This document shows positions 32,302 to 59,876 of a DNA stretch of 64,000 nt, one piece after another (position 1 is the first letter of the stretch; every line of letters begins with the position of its first letter). The DNA comes from a virus. Under the pieces are notes generated by a model, which saw nothing but the letters and a program-made list of their open reading frames with translations, ran no database searches and was not told the DNA's origin. The stretch spans positions 62,001 to 126,000 of IMG/VR virus record IMGVR_UViG_3300049845_000291; one strand, 5' to 3'. A program made the translations under genes and the position numbers.

Positions 32302-33234
32302 TCAAGCTGCCATTTCAGCCTTGATGGGCGGGTGGGGGTTGTAGTTCAGGACGTTGAAGTTCGCTGTCGTGAACTGGTCGAAACGCGGCACGTCGCCATT
32401 GATCTCAATGATCGGCGGAACTCGGGTCGTCCTCCTAAGCTGCTCACGCACTTGATCAAAGTGATTGTGGTAAATGTGCGTGTCGCCCAGCACCATAATC
32501 AACCGATCAGCGATGCAGCCCGTCGTGTACGCCAACATGTACGTCAACAGGGCGTACGACGCGATGTTGAATGGCAGCCCGAGGAACGAGTCCACTGAGC
32601 GCTGGTACATCTGGCACGACAGCCGACGATCAGAGGTCACGAAGAACTGCGCGAACATGTGGCACGGTGGCAAGGCCATCTGGTCGAGCTCACCTGGGTT
32701 CCAGGCGCTAAGCACGATTCGGCGGTCCGTTGGGTTGTTCACAAGCTTGTCGGCGACCTGCTGCAGCTGATCGATCTGTGACTTCAGGACCTTCGCCCCG
32801 AAGTACGTCGTGCTGCCATCATCATGCGTCAGGTAGTCCTCGTACCCGTGAAGGCGGAAACTTTGCCAGTTCCGCCACTGCACACCGTACACGCGCCCCA
32901 GATCACCTTTGAAGGCCGGTTTGAAGCTCGAGCCAGAGGTGTGCTCAGCGTTCGGAGACCAGATCGTCTTCTTCTCTGGATCACGCGTCCCATGAAGCAG
33001 CTCAGCAAGGCGACGTTCGTCACCACTGCCCTCGATGAACCAAAGCAGCTCGGTCAGCACGGCCTTGAATGGCACTCGCTTCGTGGTTGCCAGCGGCAAC
33101 ATGCCGCCCAGCAGCTCAATCTCCAGGCGCTCACCGAACAGCGCCCTGGTTCCAACACCAGTCCGATCCATGCGGTCATCACCATGACGTAGGATCTTGT
33201 CGTACAACGCAAGCAGTTGATCTTCCCAGAACAT
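32302..33234 (-). CDS. thyA: thymidylate synthase
   Basis: 310 aa, ThyA/td type. DRTGVGT (23-29), WRNW, the nucleophile ALPPCHMFAQF (C191), SYQRS-like QMYQRSVDSFLGLPFNIASY with N223, and HIYHNHFDQ are all present. The Asn retained in LPFNIASY marks a dUMP enzyme; dCMP hydroxymethylases have Asp there. It supplies dTMP, or a modified dUMP derivative, for phage DNA. Neighbours KptA and a 149-aa gene overlap closely. Confidence 0.94.
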   Translation of the reverse strand: MFWEDQLLALYDKILRHGDDRMDRTGVGTRALFGERLEIELLGGMLPLATTKRVPFKAVLTELLWFIEGSGDERRLAELLHGTRDPEKKTIWSPNAEHTSGSSFKPAFKGDLGRVYGVQWRNWQSFRLHGYEDYLTHDDGSTTYFGAKVLKSQIDQLQQVADKLVNNPTDRRIVLSAWNPGELDQMALPPCHMFAQFFVTSDRRLSCQMYQRSVDSFLGLPFNIASYALLTYMLAYTTGCIADRLIMVLGDTHIYHNHFDQVREQLRRTTRVPPIIEINGDVPRFDQFTTANFNVLNYNPHPPIKAEMAA

Positions 33235-33752
33235 TATTCGATCCTCTTAATATTGGAGATTGGGACCTCGGTGACCAACCAGACCCCGTTGTCGGCTTGA
33301 TAGAACGGACACAACATGGACCTTGTGCTGATCTCAAGCAGCACCAGATCGCGTTTACGTCGGCCCCCGACGGCCCGTGCGTCGTCTTGGTTCTCTGAGA
33401 GATGGACGTGATGCCGCCTCATGCTCCGCAGTCCCTGCTTTTGGATGGTCTCCCAGGCCTGGTCATTGGTGCCATGGAAGAGCACAGGCGGCGGGGTCTT
33501 GATCGCGTACTTGACGCGCACCAGAGGTGTGCTGTGCCCTTGTACTGCCCGGATCTTCGTTCGATCCGCGTTCAGCGCGTACCGCTGCTTGTCGTCCTGC
33601 TCAACGATCTGCAGGATCTCGTCCAACTGCAGCGCGGTGTTTTGCAGAAGCTGCTCGATCGACACCCAACCCTGGGTGTCGATCGAGAGGTTTGCGGCTT
33701 CGGGCTTGTGCCGCAGCAGGTACGACAGGTACTTTGACGACTCGGTAAGCAT
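33234..33752 (-). CDS. kptA: RNA 2'-phosphotransferase (Tpt1/KptA)
   Basis: 172 aa. Signature LLRHKPEA (R14, H15) in the N-terminal winged-helix part, LFHGT (~92) and HVHLS (~115) in the NAD-binding half, and RKRDLVLLEI. Tpt1/KptA moves an RNA 2'-phosphate to NAD+, giving ADP-ribose cyclic phosphate. With Rnl1, macro and cREC proteins this forms an RNA-repair set; it might also act on ADP-ribosylated or phosphorylated targets. Leaderless: TAAAAT ends 6 nt before the ATG. Confidence 0.92.
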   Translation of the reverse strand: MLTESSKYLSYLLRHKPEAANLSIDTQGWVSIEQLLQNTALQLDEILQIVEQDDKQRYALNADRTKIRAVQGHSTPLVRVKYAIKTPPPVLFHGTNDQAWETIQKQGLRSMRRHHVHLSENQDDARAVGGRRKRDLVLLEISTRSMLCPFYQADNGVWLVTEVPISNIKRIE

Positions 33753-41433: not shown

Positions 41434-42252
41434 CTAGGACGATGTCACCAGGTCTTTGACACGACTCGGCGCCCACCACACGGTTCGACCGTGCCGGTCG
41501 GAGTACGACTCCACCGGCTCGCCGTAGTGCCCACGCTGTTGGCCGTAGCACACGTTCCGGTACGAGGCGCCGTTGATCAACGGATGGCGGTCCTCGAGTG
41601 CCGAGTGGCTCAGGTCGTACAGCGCACACCAGATCTTGACGCGCTCGGTGCCAGTGATGCTTGTTGCGGCCCGGCGCGGATCGATCTGAGCCATGTACAG
41701 TCCATCGGCCCGCAGGTAGTTCCCACAGCCGGCGGCAATCCGCTGGTCGAGCAGCGCCTCGGCGATGGTCACGTTCTTGCCGAACCGGTTCAGCCGTTCC
41801 TCGAACTGCGGGATGCACAGCTGAAGCTGTTCTGCCGGGGTCATGATGTCCGGCCCGAGCTCGTTCAGCTTGCGCTTCGCCTCAGCGAGGGACACGACCT
41901 TGAACGTGCCAAAGTTCCGCGGGTCACAGAAGCACAGGAACTGCGGGCTGCCCTCGAGCTCGAGCTCGATCCGCAGGTGCTGCAGCGAGTTCGTGTGCTC
42001 CAGGTACCACCAGCCCGTCATGCCGAGGGTGCTGAGCACCGCGAAGCGCTCGTTCCCCTTCATGAAGTACAGCACGATCAGCTTGCCCTTGACCTTGATG
42101 CGCTCCAGGAAAGCGCCCTCGATGTTCGAGATCTCGGGGATGGGGGCGCGCATGTACCGACCGCTCTTGATCGACACACGCTTCACAGTGCGGCCAATGA
42201 CCGGTTGCACGTGAGTTCGTGCCACGTGCAGCACCTCAGGTCCTTCGGGCAT
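41434..42252 (-). CDS. Fpg/Nei-type DNA glycosylase, zincless-finger variant (272 aa)
   Basis: Begins MPEGPEV: Pro2 and Glu3 are the catalytic residues, so the start must be ATG 42252 (GGAAG upstream), not earlier codons. K57 in KVKGK, the H2TH block AAGCGNYLRADGLYMAQIDP, and a C-terminal RHGRTVWWAP finger follow. The four zinc cysteines of Fpg are missing, leaving a zincless finger as in some Nei/NEIL enzymes. It may repair oxidised or modified bases in phage DNA. Confidence 0.88.
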   Translation of the reverse strand: MPEGPEVLHVARTHVQPVIGRTVKRVSIKSGRYMRAPIPEISNIEGAFLERIKVKGKLIVLYFMKGNERFAVLSTLGMTGWWYLEHTNSLQHLRIELELEGSPQFLCFCDPRNFGTFKVVSLAEAKRKLNELGPDIMTPAEQLQLCIPQFEERLNRFGKNVTIAEALLDQRIAAGCGNYLRADGLYMAQIDPRRAATSITGTERVKIWCALYDLSHSALEDRHPLINGASYRNVCYGQQRGHYGEPVESYSDRHGRTVWWAPSRVKDLVTSS

Positions 42253-42290
42253 GGGATCTTCCAGGTTCTTGATGAGCTCGAGAAATTCGG

Positions 42291-42509
42291 TCATATGAGG
42301 TACCACAGGGTGTCGGCGGCCGCGACCAACAGGCCAAGAACTCCCAGGGTCAGCATCACGTTTCGGAGGAAATCTGAACTTTGGTCCCCGCCAAAGATGG
42401 TCTCGTGGCTTTTCACGTGTGTACGGTGCGCGAAGAACGCGATGCCAAAGCACATGAGCGGCCAGATCCAGGATGCCAGGACCTTGATGAGCTCGTGGTC
42501 GATGTCCAT
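42291..42509 (-). CDS. small membrane protein (72 aa)
   Basis: Two hydrophobic helices (~8-26, and ~50-72 ending LVAAADTLWYLI) around a polar HRTHVKSHETIFGGDQSS loop. ATG 42509 overlaps the upstream stop (TGATG). Inner-membrane location predicted; no family recognised. Confidence 0.7.
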   Translation of the reverse strand: MDIDHELIKVLASWIWPLMCFGIAFFAHRTHVKSHETIFGGDQSSDFLRNVMLTLGVLGLLVAAADTLWYLI

Positions 42510-43095: not shown

Positions 43096-43138
43096 ATCAT
43101 ATCATGAACCTGTAACGACCGGTTTGGTCGTTACAGGT
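43096..43138 (-). promoter_or_regulatory. promoter with 13-bp perfect TGTAACG hairpin
   Basis: TATGAT (43096-43101) next to acctgtaacgacc - ggttt - ggtcgttacaggt (43108-43138), a perfect 13-bp inverted repeat containing TGTAACG on both arms. It starts two bases after the stop of the nucleotidyltransferase gene. Operator is more likely than terminator because no T-run follows. Confidence 0.62.
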
Positions 43139-43139
43139 G

Positions 43140-44765
43140 TCACGTGGTGTACTGTGTGTCTGAGAACACCTCGTTCGGCGTCAAGCCCTGCAACAGGAGC
43201 TGACCAATGGACAACCCGTGGTAGTGCGCCGCCACTGACTTCACTGGATCGTTCTTGATGTACTGCGCCAAGCCGATCCAGATCACCGCCAGCCAGAGGT
43301 AATGCACCTCGGTGAAGCGCTCCATGAGCAAAGCACAGCCGCCCAAATCCGGCTTGGGGATCTTGAACTTCATCCCCCAGCTCGCACCGTGAACGCCATT
43401 GTGGTCCAGATGGAACTCACGCGAGTAGTTGAACAGGTCGTACCCGCTGAGCGCGTACGCCAGCTTTGCGATGTCGTACTCTGGTACGCCGTACGTCTTG
43501 GTCTGACCAAAGTACCCGCGTGGATCGATCAGCGTGATCTCCAGCGTGTCGGGATCGATCATGCTGTTCGACATCTGCAGGTCACCATGGATCATGCTCA
43601 TGGTGTTGACGCCTTGGTAGTGCTTGGCGAGCTTCTCATACAGCCCGTTAATGATCTCCAGCGGAGACATGCGTAGGTACAGTCCATTGACGTTCTGAAC
43701 CGGGCCGAAGGCATCGATGACGCCAGCAATCTCACGGTACCGATTCAGGAGCTTCTCATGCGCCTCGATCTTGACATCACGCTGCACGATCTCGGTGGTG
43801 AACTCTTCCTTGATGCTGTGCAGCCTATCTGCTTGGTCAAAAAGGCGGCGCAGCACGAGGCGTCTGTTCTCAGCATCAAGGGTCCCCCAGTGCTGCCAGA
43901 CTGGGACACCTTTGACCTTGCTCATCACGAACGAGTCGCGGTCCATCGACACCCAGACCTTTGGCCGGCGGACCAATGTCCGCCGACGGTCGAGTTCCTC
44001 GTACCACGCGATCTCTTTCTTGATGAGCTGCTCGCCTTGGGTGTTCAACGCGCGCTTGAGCACCAGGTCTCCATGGATCTCAACCGAGTTGAACGAACGA
44101 GCGGCGTCGGCCGTTGAGCGAACGCGCTCAAGCTTTGGCTTGTCACCCCAGTCAATGATCGACGGCATGGGGAGCTGGAACACACCGTCCTTGGAGTACT
44201 GTGTAAGCAGCTCGACAAAGTCTTGGCCCTTGGTGTACGGCTTCGGGTGGTACTCAGCCACCGCGTACACACCGAAAAGCCCGCCACGACCGTCCTCTCG
44301 CAGCACTGGGACCTTGTGCTTGACACCGGGTCGATCAGCAAGATCGTATCGGTTTGGGTGATCGTAGTTCGTGAACGCGACGGCCTCGTGCCCAACAAGA
44401 TCCTCTGGGCGGAAGTGCTCACCAGGCAGCACATCACACCAGGTGAAGAGCACTGGACTGCCTTCAAGATGCTGGCATGAGCTGAAGATCGCGTGCGCCG
44501 AGCCATGCGCGCCATCGACTGTCACAACATGAAAGGGCAGCTCTGGTTGCGACGCCCCAAAGTACATGTTGTAGTACTCGCGGACCAGCGTCCGGTAGCT
44601 GGAGTGCACGATCACCGTGATTGAACTGGCGTACTGCGTCCAGTACTCGATCTGCTTGACAAAGCCAGTTTCCTTCCCGATGTTCACGAAGAACTTTGGG
44701 ATGTGGTTCGTGAGGGGAGCAAGGCGGCTTCCAAGCCCGCCGGCGACGATGACGACGTTCATCAT
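43140..44765 (-). CDS. bifunctional nucleotidyltransferase + APH/choline-kinase-like protein (541 aa)
   Basis: N-terminal sugar-phosphate nucleotidyltransferase: VAGGLGSRLAPLTNHIPK (7-24), DVLPGEHF, and a later GLFGVYAV. C-terminal small-molecule kinase of the aminoglycoside/choline-kinase fold: MIHGDLQMSN (~391-400) and LIDPRGYFG (~412-420). Such pairs activate sugars or choline for surface polymers. It is coupled to the KdsD-like isomerase gene, suggesting a phage sugar-nucleotide pathway. Two tandem ATGs (44765, 44762). Confidence 0.82.
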   Translation of the reverse strand: MMNVVIVAGGLGSRLAPLTNHIPKFFVNIGKETGFVKQIEYWTQYASSITVIVHSSYRTLVREYYNMYFGASQPELPFHVVTVDGAHGSAHAIFSSCQHLEGSPVLFTWCDVLPGEHFRPEDLVGHEAVAFTNYDHPNRYDLADRPGVKHKVPVLREDGRGGLFGVYAVAEYHPKPYTKGQDFVELLTQYSKDGVFQLPMPSIIDWGDKPKLERVRSTADAARSFNSVEIHGDLVLKRALNTQGEQLIKKEIAWYEELDRRRTLVRRPKVWVSMDRDSFVMSKVKGVPVWQHWGTLDAENRRLVLRRLFDQADRLHSIKEEFTTEIVQRDVKIEAHEKLLNRYREIAGVIDAFGPVQNVNGLYLRMSPLEIINGLYEKLAKHYQGVNTMSMIHGDLQMSNSMIDPDTLEITLIDPRGYFGQTKTYGVPEYDIAKLAYALSGYDLFNYSREFHLDHNGVHGASWGMKFKIPKPDLGGCALLMERFTEVHYLWLAVIWIGLAQYIKNDPVKSVAAHYHGLSIGQLLLQGLTPNEVFSDTQYTT

Positions 44766-45385
44766 GCCACCCCACTTTCGGCCTTGAGCATCGCCCCAAG
44801 GGCACCGTCAGGGTGCAGCTTGAGGAAGTCCATGCGCTGGAAGTTCAGCCCATGCGAAACTTGGACCGCAATGCAGTCCAAGATGCACAGCAACGCGGTG
44901 GTGCTGGTAGTGGGAGCCAGCCCGTGCTCATCGCCCTCGACGACCGCTCCGATGCACAGCTCGCGGTGCACATGCGGATTTCGAGGCTTTGTTGGCTTGC
45001 AGTGAATCAGGATCTGCTTGACGTTCGGTCGAATGACCGTCACGTGCTGGATCGTCTCTAGCATCTCTCGAGTTGTGCCAGAACGCGAGATGTGGATAAT
45101 CAGATCCTCATGCCCGATATGACCGTAATCTCCGTGTCCGGTATGGGCGGTGTTTAGGTACAGAGACGGGATACCTAGGCTCGCCATGGTTTCGCTGATT
45201 TTGGCAGCGATGTTGGCGTTCTTGCCAACACCCGTGATGATCACACGAGCTCGATATTCTTTACGGGCCGTCTCGAGGACGTCTTGAACAATTGCTTCGT
45301 ATTCTGCTGAAGCAACGACAGGCTTCAGCGCCAAGAGCGCTGAAGCCTGTCGTTCAATGTTTGTAAGAGCTAGACTGTTACCCAT
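44762..45385 (-). CDS. SIS-domain sugar-phosphate isomerase, KdsD-like (207 aa)
   Basis: SIS fold: ITGVGKNANIAAKISETMAS (~50-69), ISRSGTTREML (~98-108), APTTSTTALLCILDC, and the C-terminal LKLHPDGALGAML, a signature of arabinose-5-phosphate isomerase KdsD. The two CBS domains of KdsD are absent, as in short A5P isomerases. ATG 45385 has GGAGGCAAC buried in a perfect hairpin, and another 18-bp hairpin lies in the early coding region. It makes or uses an aldose/ketose phosphate for the neighbouring nucleotidyltransferase. Confidence 0.82.
   Translation of the reverse strand: MGNSLALTNIERQASALLALKPVVASAEYEAIVQDVLETARKEYRARVIITGVGKNANIAAKISETMASLGIPSLYLNTAHTGHGDYGHIGHEDLIIHISRSGTTREMLETIQHVTVIRPNVKQILIHCKPTKPRNPHVHRELCIGAVVEGDEHGLAPTTSTTALLCILDCIAVQVSHGLNFQRMDFLKLHPDGALGAMLKAESGVA
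45314..45354. repeat. 18-bp perfect inverted repeat inside the SIS gene
   Basis: Arms 45314-45331 and 45337-45354 are exact complements with a 5-nt loop (caaga). It lies 31 nt after the start codon on the coding (minus) strand and codes for part of QASALLALKPVV. An mRNA hairpin this strong inside an early coding region is unusual. Confidence 0.85.
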
Positions 45386-45386
45386 G

Positions 45387-45436
45387 TTGCCTCCTAATCT
45401 AGGAGGCAATTGTAACCGAGACTAGCTCTCTATCAA
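45387..45436 (-). promoter_or_regulatory. promoter plus ribosome-site hairpin before the SIS gene
   Basis: TTGATA (45431-45436), 16-nt spacer, TACAAT (45409-45414). From 45409 to 45387 the sequence is a perfect inverted repeat, ttgcctccta - gat - taggaggcaa, whose right arm holds the AGGAGG ribosome site just before ATG 45385. Depending on the exact start it is an operator at +1 or a hairpin hiding the ribosome site. Confidence 0.66.
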
Positions 45437-58498: not shown

Positions 58499-58758
58499 CA
58501 GTCGTACTCGTGCAGCTCTTCATCTTCGTCGTCGCCACCGCGCATCGCGCTCTTGATCTCGGCATCAGACATCGGCTGGAAGCCAACGACGGTGCCGCAA
58601 TCTAGGCAGATCTCCATGTCAATGTAGTCACCGCCACAGACACCAGTGATGTCAGGCGGATAGTCGTCGCGCTCGAGCCGCAGGTGCGGCACAGACGTGA
58701 AGCACAGGTCGTTGACCTTGCCGTTGATGCTCAGAACTCGGGTGTGGTTGCAGGCCAT
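58498..58758 (-). CDS. small CxxC zinc-binding-type protein (86 aa)
   Basis: Cys at MACNHTRVL, DLCF, VCGG and CLDCG (~51-55), a pattern for a zinc site, and an acidic tail DDEDEELHEYD. I have seen this type among phage proteins with a DxEICLDCGTVVG block. Its 5' end overlaps the stop of the BGT-like gene (28 nt), so expression is coupled. Confidence 0.75.
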   Translation of the reverse strand: MACNHTRVLSINGKVNDLCFTSVPHLRLERDDYPPDITGVCGGDYIDMEICLDCGTVVGFQPMSDAEIKSAMRGGDDEDEELHEYD

Positions 58759-59876
58759 TTGAAGGTGCTCAGGGTGTTGACGAAGTTCTCGCAGAACTGA
58801 ACTGGATCCCAGCCAAGGGCCAGCCGCTGTTCCTCGATGATGGTTTGACGGGTCTCCGGCGAGCTCTTGATCAACCGTAGCAGGTCAACCAGCATCGCCT
58901 GGTCCCTGACGTACAGATACTCATGCGCCGCGGTGCCTTTCGGGTAGATCCGTCGGCTCTTGTCGATGTTGGCGTCGATGAACACGATGTTCCCAGCGGC
59001 GATGCACTCGGCAACGCGCTGTGGAATCAGATCGAGGCTCTCGTACGATGGGTCACCAGTCACCAGATGCGCCAGCGCGCCTTGCATCTTTGGCAGTACG
59101 TCGCCGTACTTCACCATACCAGTGAACTGCGGGTACCGCTTGACAGGAAGCTTGCCGATCTTCGGATGCTTCTCGAAGTCGGTCTCGTCGATCTTACCGA
59201 AGATCTCAACGCTGATGTCGTCTGGCAGACCACAGTACCACTTGTACAGGTTTGGGATGCGCCGGCCGCCGCGTGCGGTTCCGCCGTACATCAGGTCAAC
59301 GGTGGGGTGCTCAGCAGGCGGCAGCCACGGGTTGAGCAGCGGGAATCGATCCATTGGGTAGTGCACGATCTGCCCAAGGGGGACGCCTTTCTTTGGCCAG
59401 TCCGCCTTCACGGCGAGCAGCGCGTACGGTTGCGAGACCAAGTGGATCGGCTTCTGGATCAGGATCTCGTCTTTGGTGTACTTCGTGCCCCACGGCTTCT
59501 TCTCGACGTTCTCCCAGATCTGAACGAACGGCAGCTCCGGATCACACATCAAGTACACCACCGGGCCAGTGAACGTGTTGATCAGCCGGTAGTTCGCGAT
59601 CTGCTCGGCGTCCTCAGCGCCACCGAAGAAGTTCACGTTCCCGTTGATGACGCACAACACATCCAGCTGCTGCAGCACCGATGGATCTGTCTCCATGATC
59701 TGGTGCCAGTGCAGGCTCTCGTGCAGAGTGTCCTTCTTCAGGATTTTGGTGAACACGTGCACCTCAGCGCCACCATTTCGCAGGGCCTTGCAGATGCTGA
59801 TGGCCTCACCCGAGGTCACTGAGTTGTCAAGGTCCCACAGAATGCGGGCACCCAGCTTCAAAACACCGATCTTCAT
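58731..59876 (-). CDS. bgt: beta-glucosyltransferase-like protein (T4 BGT family)
   Basis: 381 aa; T4 BGT has 351. Colinear matches to T4 BGT: NGNVNFFGG, LPFVQIWENV and KPWGTKYTKDEILI (T4: NSSINFFGG, LPFSQSWPNV, RPWAYLYTEEELLI), then PTVDLMYGGTARGGRR, VEIFGKI, FTGMVKY and the KSRRIYP region. T4 BGT adds glucose from UDP-glucose to 5-hydroxymethylcytosine. Homology implies a sugar-modified base or a related glycosyl target. No dCMP hydroxymethylase gene is seen here. Confidence 0.86.
   Translation of the reverse strand: MKIGVLKLGARILWDLDNSVTSGEAISICKALRNGGAEVHVFTKILKKDTLHESLHWHQIMETDPSVLQQLDVLCVINGNVNFFGGAEDAEQIANYRLINTFTGPVVYLMCDPELPFVQIWENVEKKPWGTKYTKDEILIQKPIHLVSQPYALLAVKADWPKKGVPLGQIVHYPMDRFPLLNPWLPPAEHPTVDLMYGGTARGGRRIPNLYKWYCGLPDDISVEIFGKIDETDFEKHPKIGKLPVKRYPQFTGMVKYGDVLPKMQGALAHLVTGDPSYESLDLIPQRVAECIAAGNIVFIDANIDKSRRIYPKGTAAHEYLYVRDQAMLVDLLRLIKSSPETRQTIIEEQRLALGWDPVQFCENFVNTLSTFKWPATTPEF

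Follow-up and report, generated by a model that had tools for sequence, protein, structure and literature searches.

The locus analysed here lies in a 64,000-nucleotide stretch (the window) of a 152-kb phage record and centres on a SIS gene and its 5′ end, which carry the following features:

44762–45385, minus strand: SIS gene starting with the ATG at 45385, a member of the arabinose 5-phosphate isomerase family phrog_5670
43140–44765, minus strand: NTP-transferase/APH (kinase) fusion gene, the partner downstream of SIS
45314–45354, minus strand: coding hairpin, 18 perfect base pairs around a 5-nt loop
45387–45409, minus strand: 10-bp hairpin with a 3-nt loop, pairing the Shine-Dalgarno (SD) sequence AGGAGG
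45365–45430, minus strand: outer stem formed by a 5′ arm (45422–45430) and codons 45365–45373, predicted in read-through RNA only
45408–45419, minus strand: promoter-like TCGGTTACAATT box
45409–45414 and 45431–45436, minus strand: −10 hexamer TACAAT and TTGATA, separated by a 16-nt spacer (promoter scan)
45399–45402, minus strand: start of transcription as predicted from the −10 box, lying within the SD hairpin

The SIS protein matches the phrog_5670 profile over its full length (residues 5–203, E = 1.9e-72). RB69 ORF055c and ORF53_52c have been proposed as UDP-arabinose synthesis genes for arabinosyl-hydroxymethylcytosine (arabinosyl-hmC) (PMC6024577), and the phage studied here encodes the same two protein families adjacently. 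Its proteins share about 52% identity with the RB69-type proteins of the ORF055c family (SIS) and 34–36% with known T4-like phage proteins (NTP-transferase/APH fusion), and DNA modification in this phage is putative. Two further genes of the record fit this picture: a beta-glucosyltransferase-like gene at 58734–59876 of the window (phrog_7922, E = 3.9e-49), a candidate sugar transferase for modified DNA, and a thymidylate-synthase-family gene outside the window (L036, 726–1769). Together, these four genes make a putative DNA-hypermodification pathway likely in this phage, in which the SIS gene probably helps to disguise the phage DNA with sugar. A formamidopyrimidine-DNA glycosylase-like gene also lies near the modification genes (41434–42453), and a perfect 13-bp hairpin is found directly 3′ of the NTP-transferase/kinase gene (43108–43138), where the consensus scan flagged no terminator.

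Bacterial genomes searched for SIS relatives returned distant SIS proteins only (28–40% identity), the phage collection held only short, distant Acinetobacter phage matches at the DNA level, and the covered parts of two additional contigs, which carry related topoisomerase genes, contained no SIS gene. The record itself is probably incomplete, because relatives run to 343 kb.

A predicted gate over the Shine-Dalgarno sequence

The hairpin at 45387–45409, overlooked in the original prediction, starts directly after TCGGTTACAATT. This box also stands upstream of the SIS gene in other related phages, and elsewhere in the searched genomes it hardly occurs; a second copy precedes the thymidylate-synthase-family gene of the same record. 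A broad regulon was considered for TCGGTTACAAT and rejected, with one or two copies per genome where it is present; the two copies unconnected with SIS precede the thymidylate-synthase-family gene (G000, the present record) and a YqeY-like gene (G004). If TACAAT serves as the −10 element, transcription would start at about 45399–45402, within the SD hairpin; the 5′ arm of that hairpin would fall between TCGGTTACAAT, a conserved promoter-like box, and this start. Read-through RNA from upstream would bury the SD sequence in the hairpin, and the predicted outer stem would enclose both hairpin and start codon; a transcript begun at the predicted promoter of the gene itself would lack the 5′ arm, leaving the SD sequence free and translatable.

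Folding predictions were compared for the two kinds of RNA. In read-through RNA, the predicted probability that the SD sequence is unpaired is 0.00 for the window and 0.02, 0.08 and 0.26 for the relatives L027, L018 and L015; in RNA beginning at the predicted own start it rises to 0.32 for the window and to 0.57, 0.69 and 0.58, respectively. L018 and L027 thus behave like the window and L015 does so in part, while the other five phages lack SD burial of comparable strength. A similar arrangement is present in three to four of nine phages and absent in five of the nine. The combined shuffle P, with the window left out, is 4e-4, and the SD hairpin and outer stem, taken without the 18-bp element, reach a z of −6.8.

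The arrangement resembles a known mode of control in phage T4. There, e, soc and I-TevI are silenced on read-through RNA and open on their own transcript (PMC2988022). As in these genes and in segB and mobE (PMC2988022), the SD sequence lies here in a stable hairpin, and a predicted internal promoter would start the RNA inside it and free the SD sequence. Unlike the T4 ribosome-site hairpins, ours is preceded by a sigma-70-like TACAAT box and not by a T4 late promoter; it belongs to a DNA-modification gene and not to a late or homing gene, and its transcript start is a prediction. The SD hairpin is a better supported candidate for regulation than the 18-bp hairpin, and it raises the possibility that a T4-type read-through gate times a DNA-hypermodification gene.

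The 18-bp coding hairpin and its absence from relatives

The longer hairpin has exactly the geometry originally reported: its arms (45314–45331 and 45337–45354) are complementary at 18 of 18 positions around a 5-nt loop, and it begins 31 nt downstream of the A in the SIS ATG. Folded as RNA, it gains a U-G pair to give 19 bp and a 3-nt loop. No longer perfect hairpin exists anywhere in the 152-kb record, and ten dinucleotide-preserving shuffles of the window produced hairpins of at most 10 bp. After GC correction, no other 120-nt stretch of the window is as structured as this region (residual z of about −5.2, both strands). With the protein fixed and codons weighted by their usage in this phage, an exact calculation over synonymous codons gives a probability of 2.4e-7 for 18/18 pairing, so the claim that the hairpin is not dictated by amino-acid coding alone was borne out (P ~2e-7). 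No exact copy was found in viral contigs. A search against Rfam returned no family; its only hit, SurC at 17.5 bits, fell below the gathering score of 80. We also rejected an intrinsic terminator: the gene strand carries neither a T-tract nor a terminator-like site, and the terminator scan flagged only a marginal site on the opposite strand.

Conservation of this hairpin was assessed in 12 SIS homologues from other large phages, about 44–69% identical. Their alignments span the hairpin, and none has an indel within the 18-bp element. Eleven of them pair at only 4–7 of the 18 positions in register; the remaining one, L015, pairs at 10, seven of which are contiguous inner pairs forming a 7-bp hairpin in the same register that the others lack. 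The protein is thus kept but the full pairing is not in 12/12, at identities of up to 69%, an outcome that the original prediction had named as refuting selection for the structure. At the resolution of homologues no more than 69% identical, the 18-bp hairpin is not a conserved regulatory element and is specific to this phage lineage. Full pairing can be attained by synonymous choice for this protein only, the homologues reaching at most 10–15 positions, and just 4 of 3000 random family-like composites permit it, so protein and hairpin changed together.

Perfect hairpins across the phage genome

The SIS hairpin has company. We counted perfect hairpins inside our own gene calls over the whole record and compared them with synonymous shuffles: 68 coding hairpins of at least 8 bp were observed against 21.7 expected, 28 of at least 9 bp against 6.1, and 12 of at least 10 bp against 1.5. 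The excess is present at all positions within genes, with a slight enrichment in the first 100 nt (7 hairpins of at least 9 bp against 3.3). A bias towards perfect arms is expected if template switching homogenises them, whereas selection acting on the RNA should also favour G-U pairs. Among stems of 10 positions, perfect arms are in 8.1-fold excess, and those with a single non-perfect pair reach 2.7-fold (G-U), 1.4-fold (A-C) and 1.5-fold (other mismatch). The strongest excess, seen with fully Watson-Crick arms, points to mutation as the source; the lean of G-U over A-C at 10 positions (15 versus 8) could reflect some minor selection at the RNA level. Setting perfect against one-mismatch hairpins, each measured against synonymous shuffles, offers a simple genome-wide test between mutation and RNA selection.

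Not all phages share this tendency. The stretches of RB69, lambda and phiKZ examined for such an excess showed none, and among seven phages with related SIS genes (40 kb each) it was clear in two (G005, G007) and small in five. These differences make the control of template switching in phage replication testable. A missing SbcCD palindrome nuclease was considered as a possible correlate of the excess. Neither subunit of the SbcC/SbcD-type palindrome nuclease families was matched in two records with the excess, the present one and G007; G004, however, matches neither subunit and yet shows no excess, and G005 has both subunits together with the excess.

Origin of the 18-bp hairpin

In our judgement, the 18-bp hairpin is probably the product of template switching during replication in this phage lineage and not a conserved RNA switch, and the start of the gene carries a separate, predicted T4-like SD gate. 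From the computational evidence, we infer the following course. A short imperfect inverted repeat may already have been favoured by the protein motif, in which A-L..A-L can be written as GCGC..GCGC and R-Q..V-V as CGACA..TGTCG; the polymerase would then have copied one arm from the other, yielding perfectly complementary arms, and the residues produced by the copying would have been tolerated. The 7-bp same-register stem of L015, absent from the 11 other homologues, is a plausible seed. Template switching is known to make perfect stems, to homogenise coding repeats and to alter coding genes (PMC8794818, PMC8604942). Like the quasipalindromes whose arms are homogenised in this way (PMC8604942, PMC8794818), the SIS hairpin is short, perfect and situated within a gene, with apparently tolerated amino-acid changes and in a phage where perfect arms are in greater excess than near-perfect ones. 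Here, by contrast, the single event is proposed and not reconstructed from an ancestral sequence; the searches yielded no homologue more than 70% identical, a point against this reading. The slight enrichment of coding hairpins in the first 100 nt of genes, the lean towards G-U and the position shared with E. coli inverted repeats (PMC6060812) also speak against it. The coding palindromes of Nematomorpha mitochondria (PMC6649704) similarly have two perfect arms and encode conserved protein, but they are numerous and reach 284 bp, against 18 bp at most in this phage. A striking coding hairpin can thus be explained by a mutation mechanism.

The original prediction had considered selection for an RNA or DNA structure likely, which our data do not support: the homologues, at most 69% identical, pair at 4–10 of 18 positions, perfect hairpins are in excess genome-wide, and the bias is towards Watson-Crick arms. 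Among the selective readings, we would still give some weight, well short of an even chance, to a selected RNA element in the SIS mRNA. It might be processed in the manner of RNase III sites, cause stalling or attenuation, or act with the SD hairpin to tune early translation. The appeal of this reading lies in the improbability of 18/18 pairing when codons vary freely (2.4e-7), the extreme folding energy, the slight genome-wide surplus of G-U over A-C variants and the location, adjoining the SD gate and within +25 to +60; in E. coli, inverted repeats are enriched 25–60 bp downstream of start codons (PMC6060812), the same position as here. An RNA element fits poorly, however, with pairing that is unconserved in 12 homologues, with a gene strand that has no T-tract and hence no intrinsic terminator, with the lack of an Rfam family, and with fully Watson-Crick arms of a kind in excess throughout the genome and at all gene positions. 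Slightly less likely again is a combined reading, in which the lineage accumulates long perfect coding hairpins, through switch-prone replication or genome-wide selection, and the SIS hairpin, as the extreme case, acts together with the SD hairpin, the two jointly controlling the DNA-modification genes.

The palindrome could instead act as DNA, as an operator, another protein-binding site or a cruciform site near the promoter, and a perfect dyad 55–95 bp downstream of the −10 box would be suitably placed. We consider this improbable: usual operators are shorter than this 41-bp dyad, which is also missing from relatives that share the promoter box and has no exact copy in viral contigs. Least credible of all is that the hairpin reflects chance or misassembly. 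The sequence does come from a single assembly of a metagenome-derived virus contig, and no second copy was found; however, neither the reading frame nor the protein alignment is interrupted at the hairpin, which does not lie at a contig end, and the probability of chance is very small.

The second longest perfect coding hairpin of the record lies in another gene of the window:

33234–33752, minus strand: KptA/Tpt1-type RNA 2′-phosphotransferase gene

This hairpin (33654–33687) has 15 bp and a 4-nt loop, and begins 65 nt into the gene.
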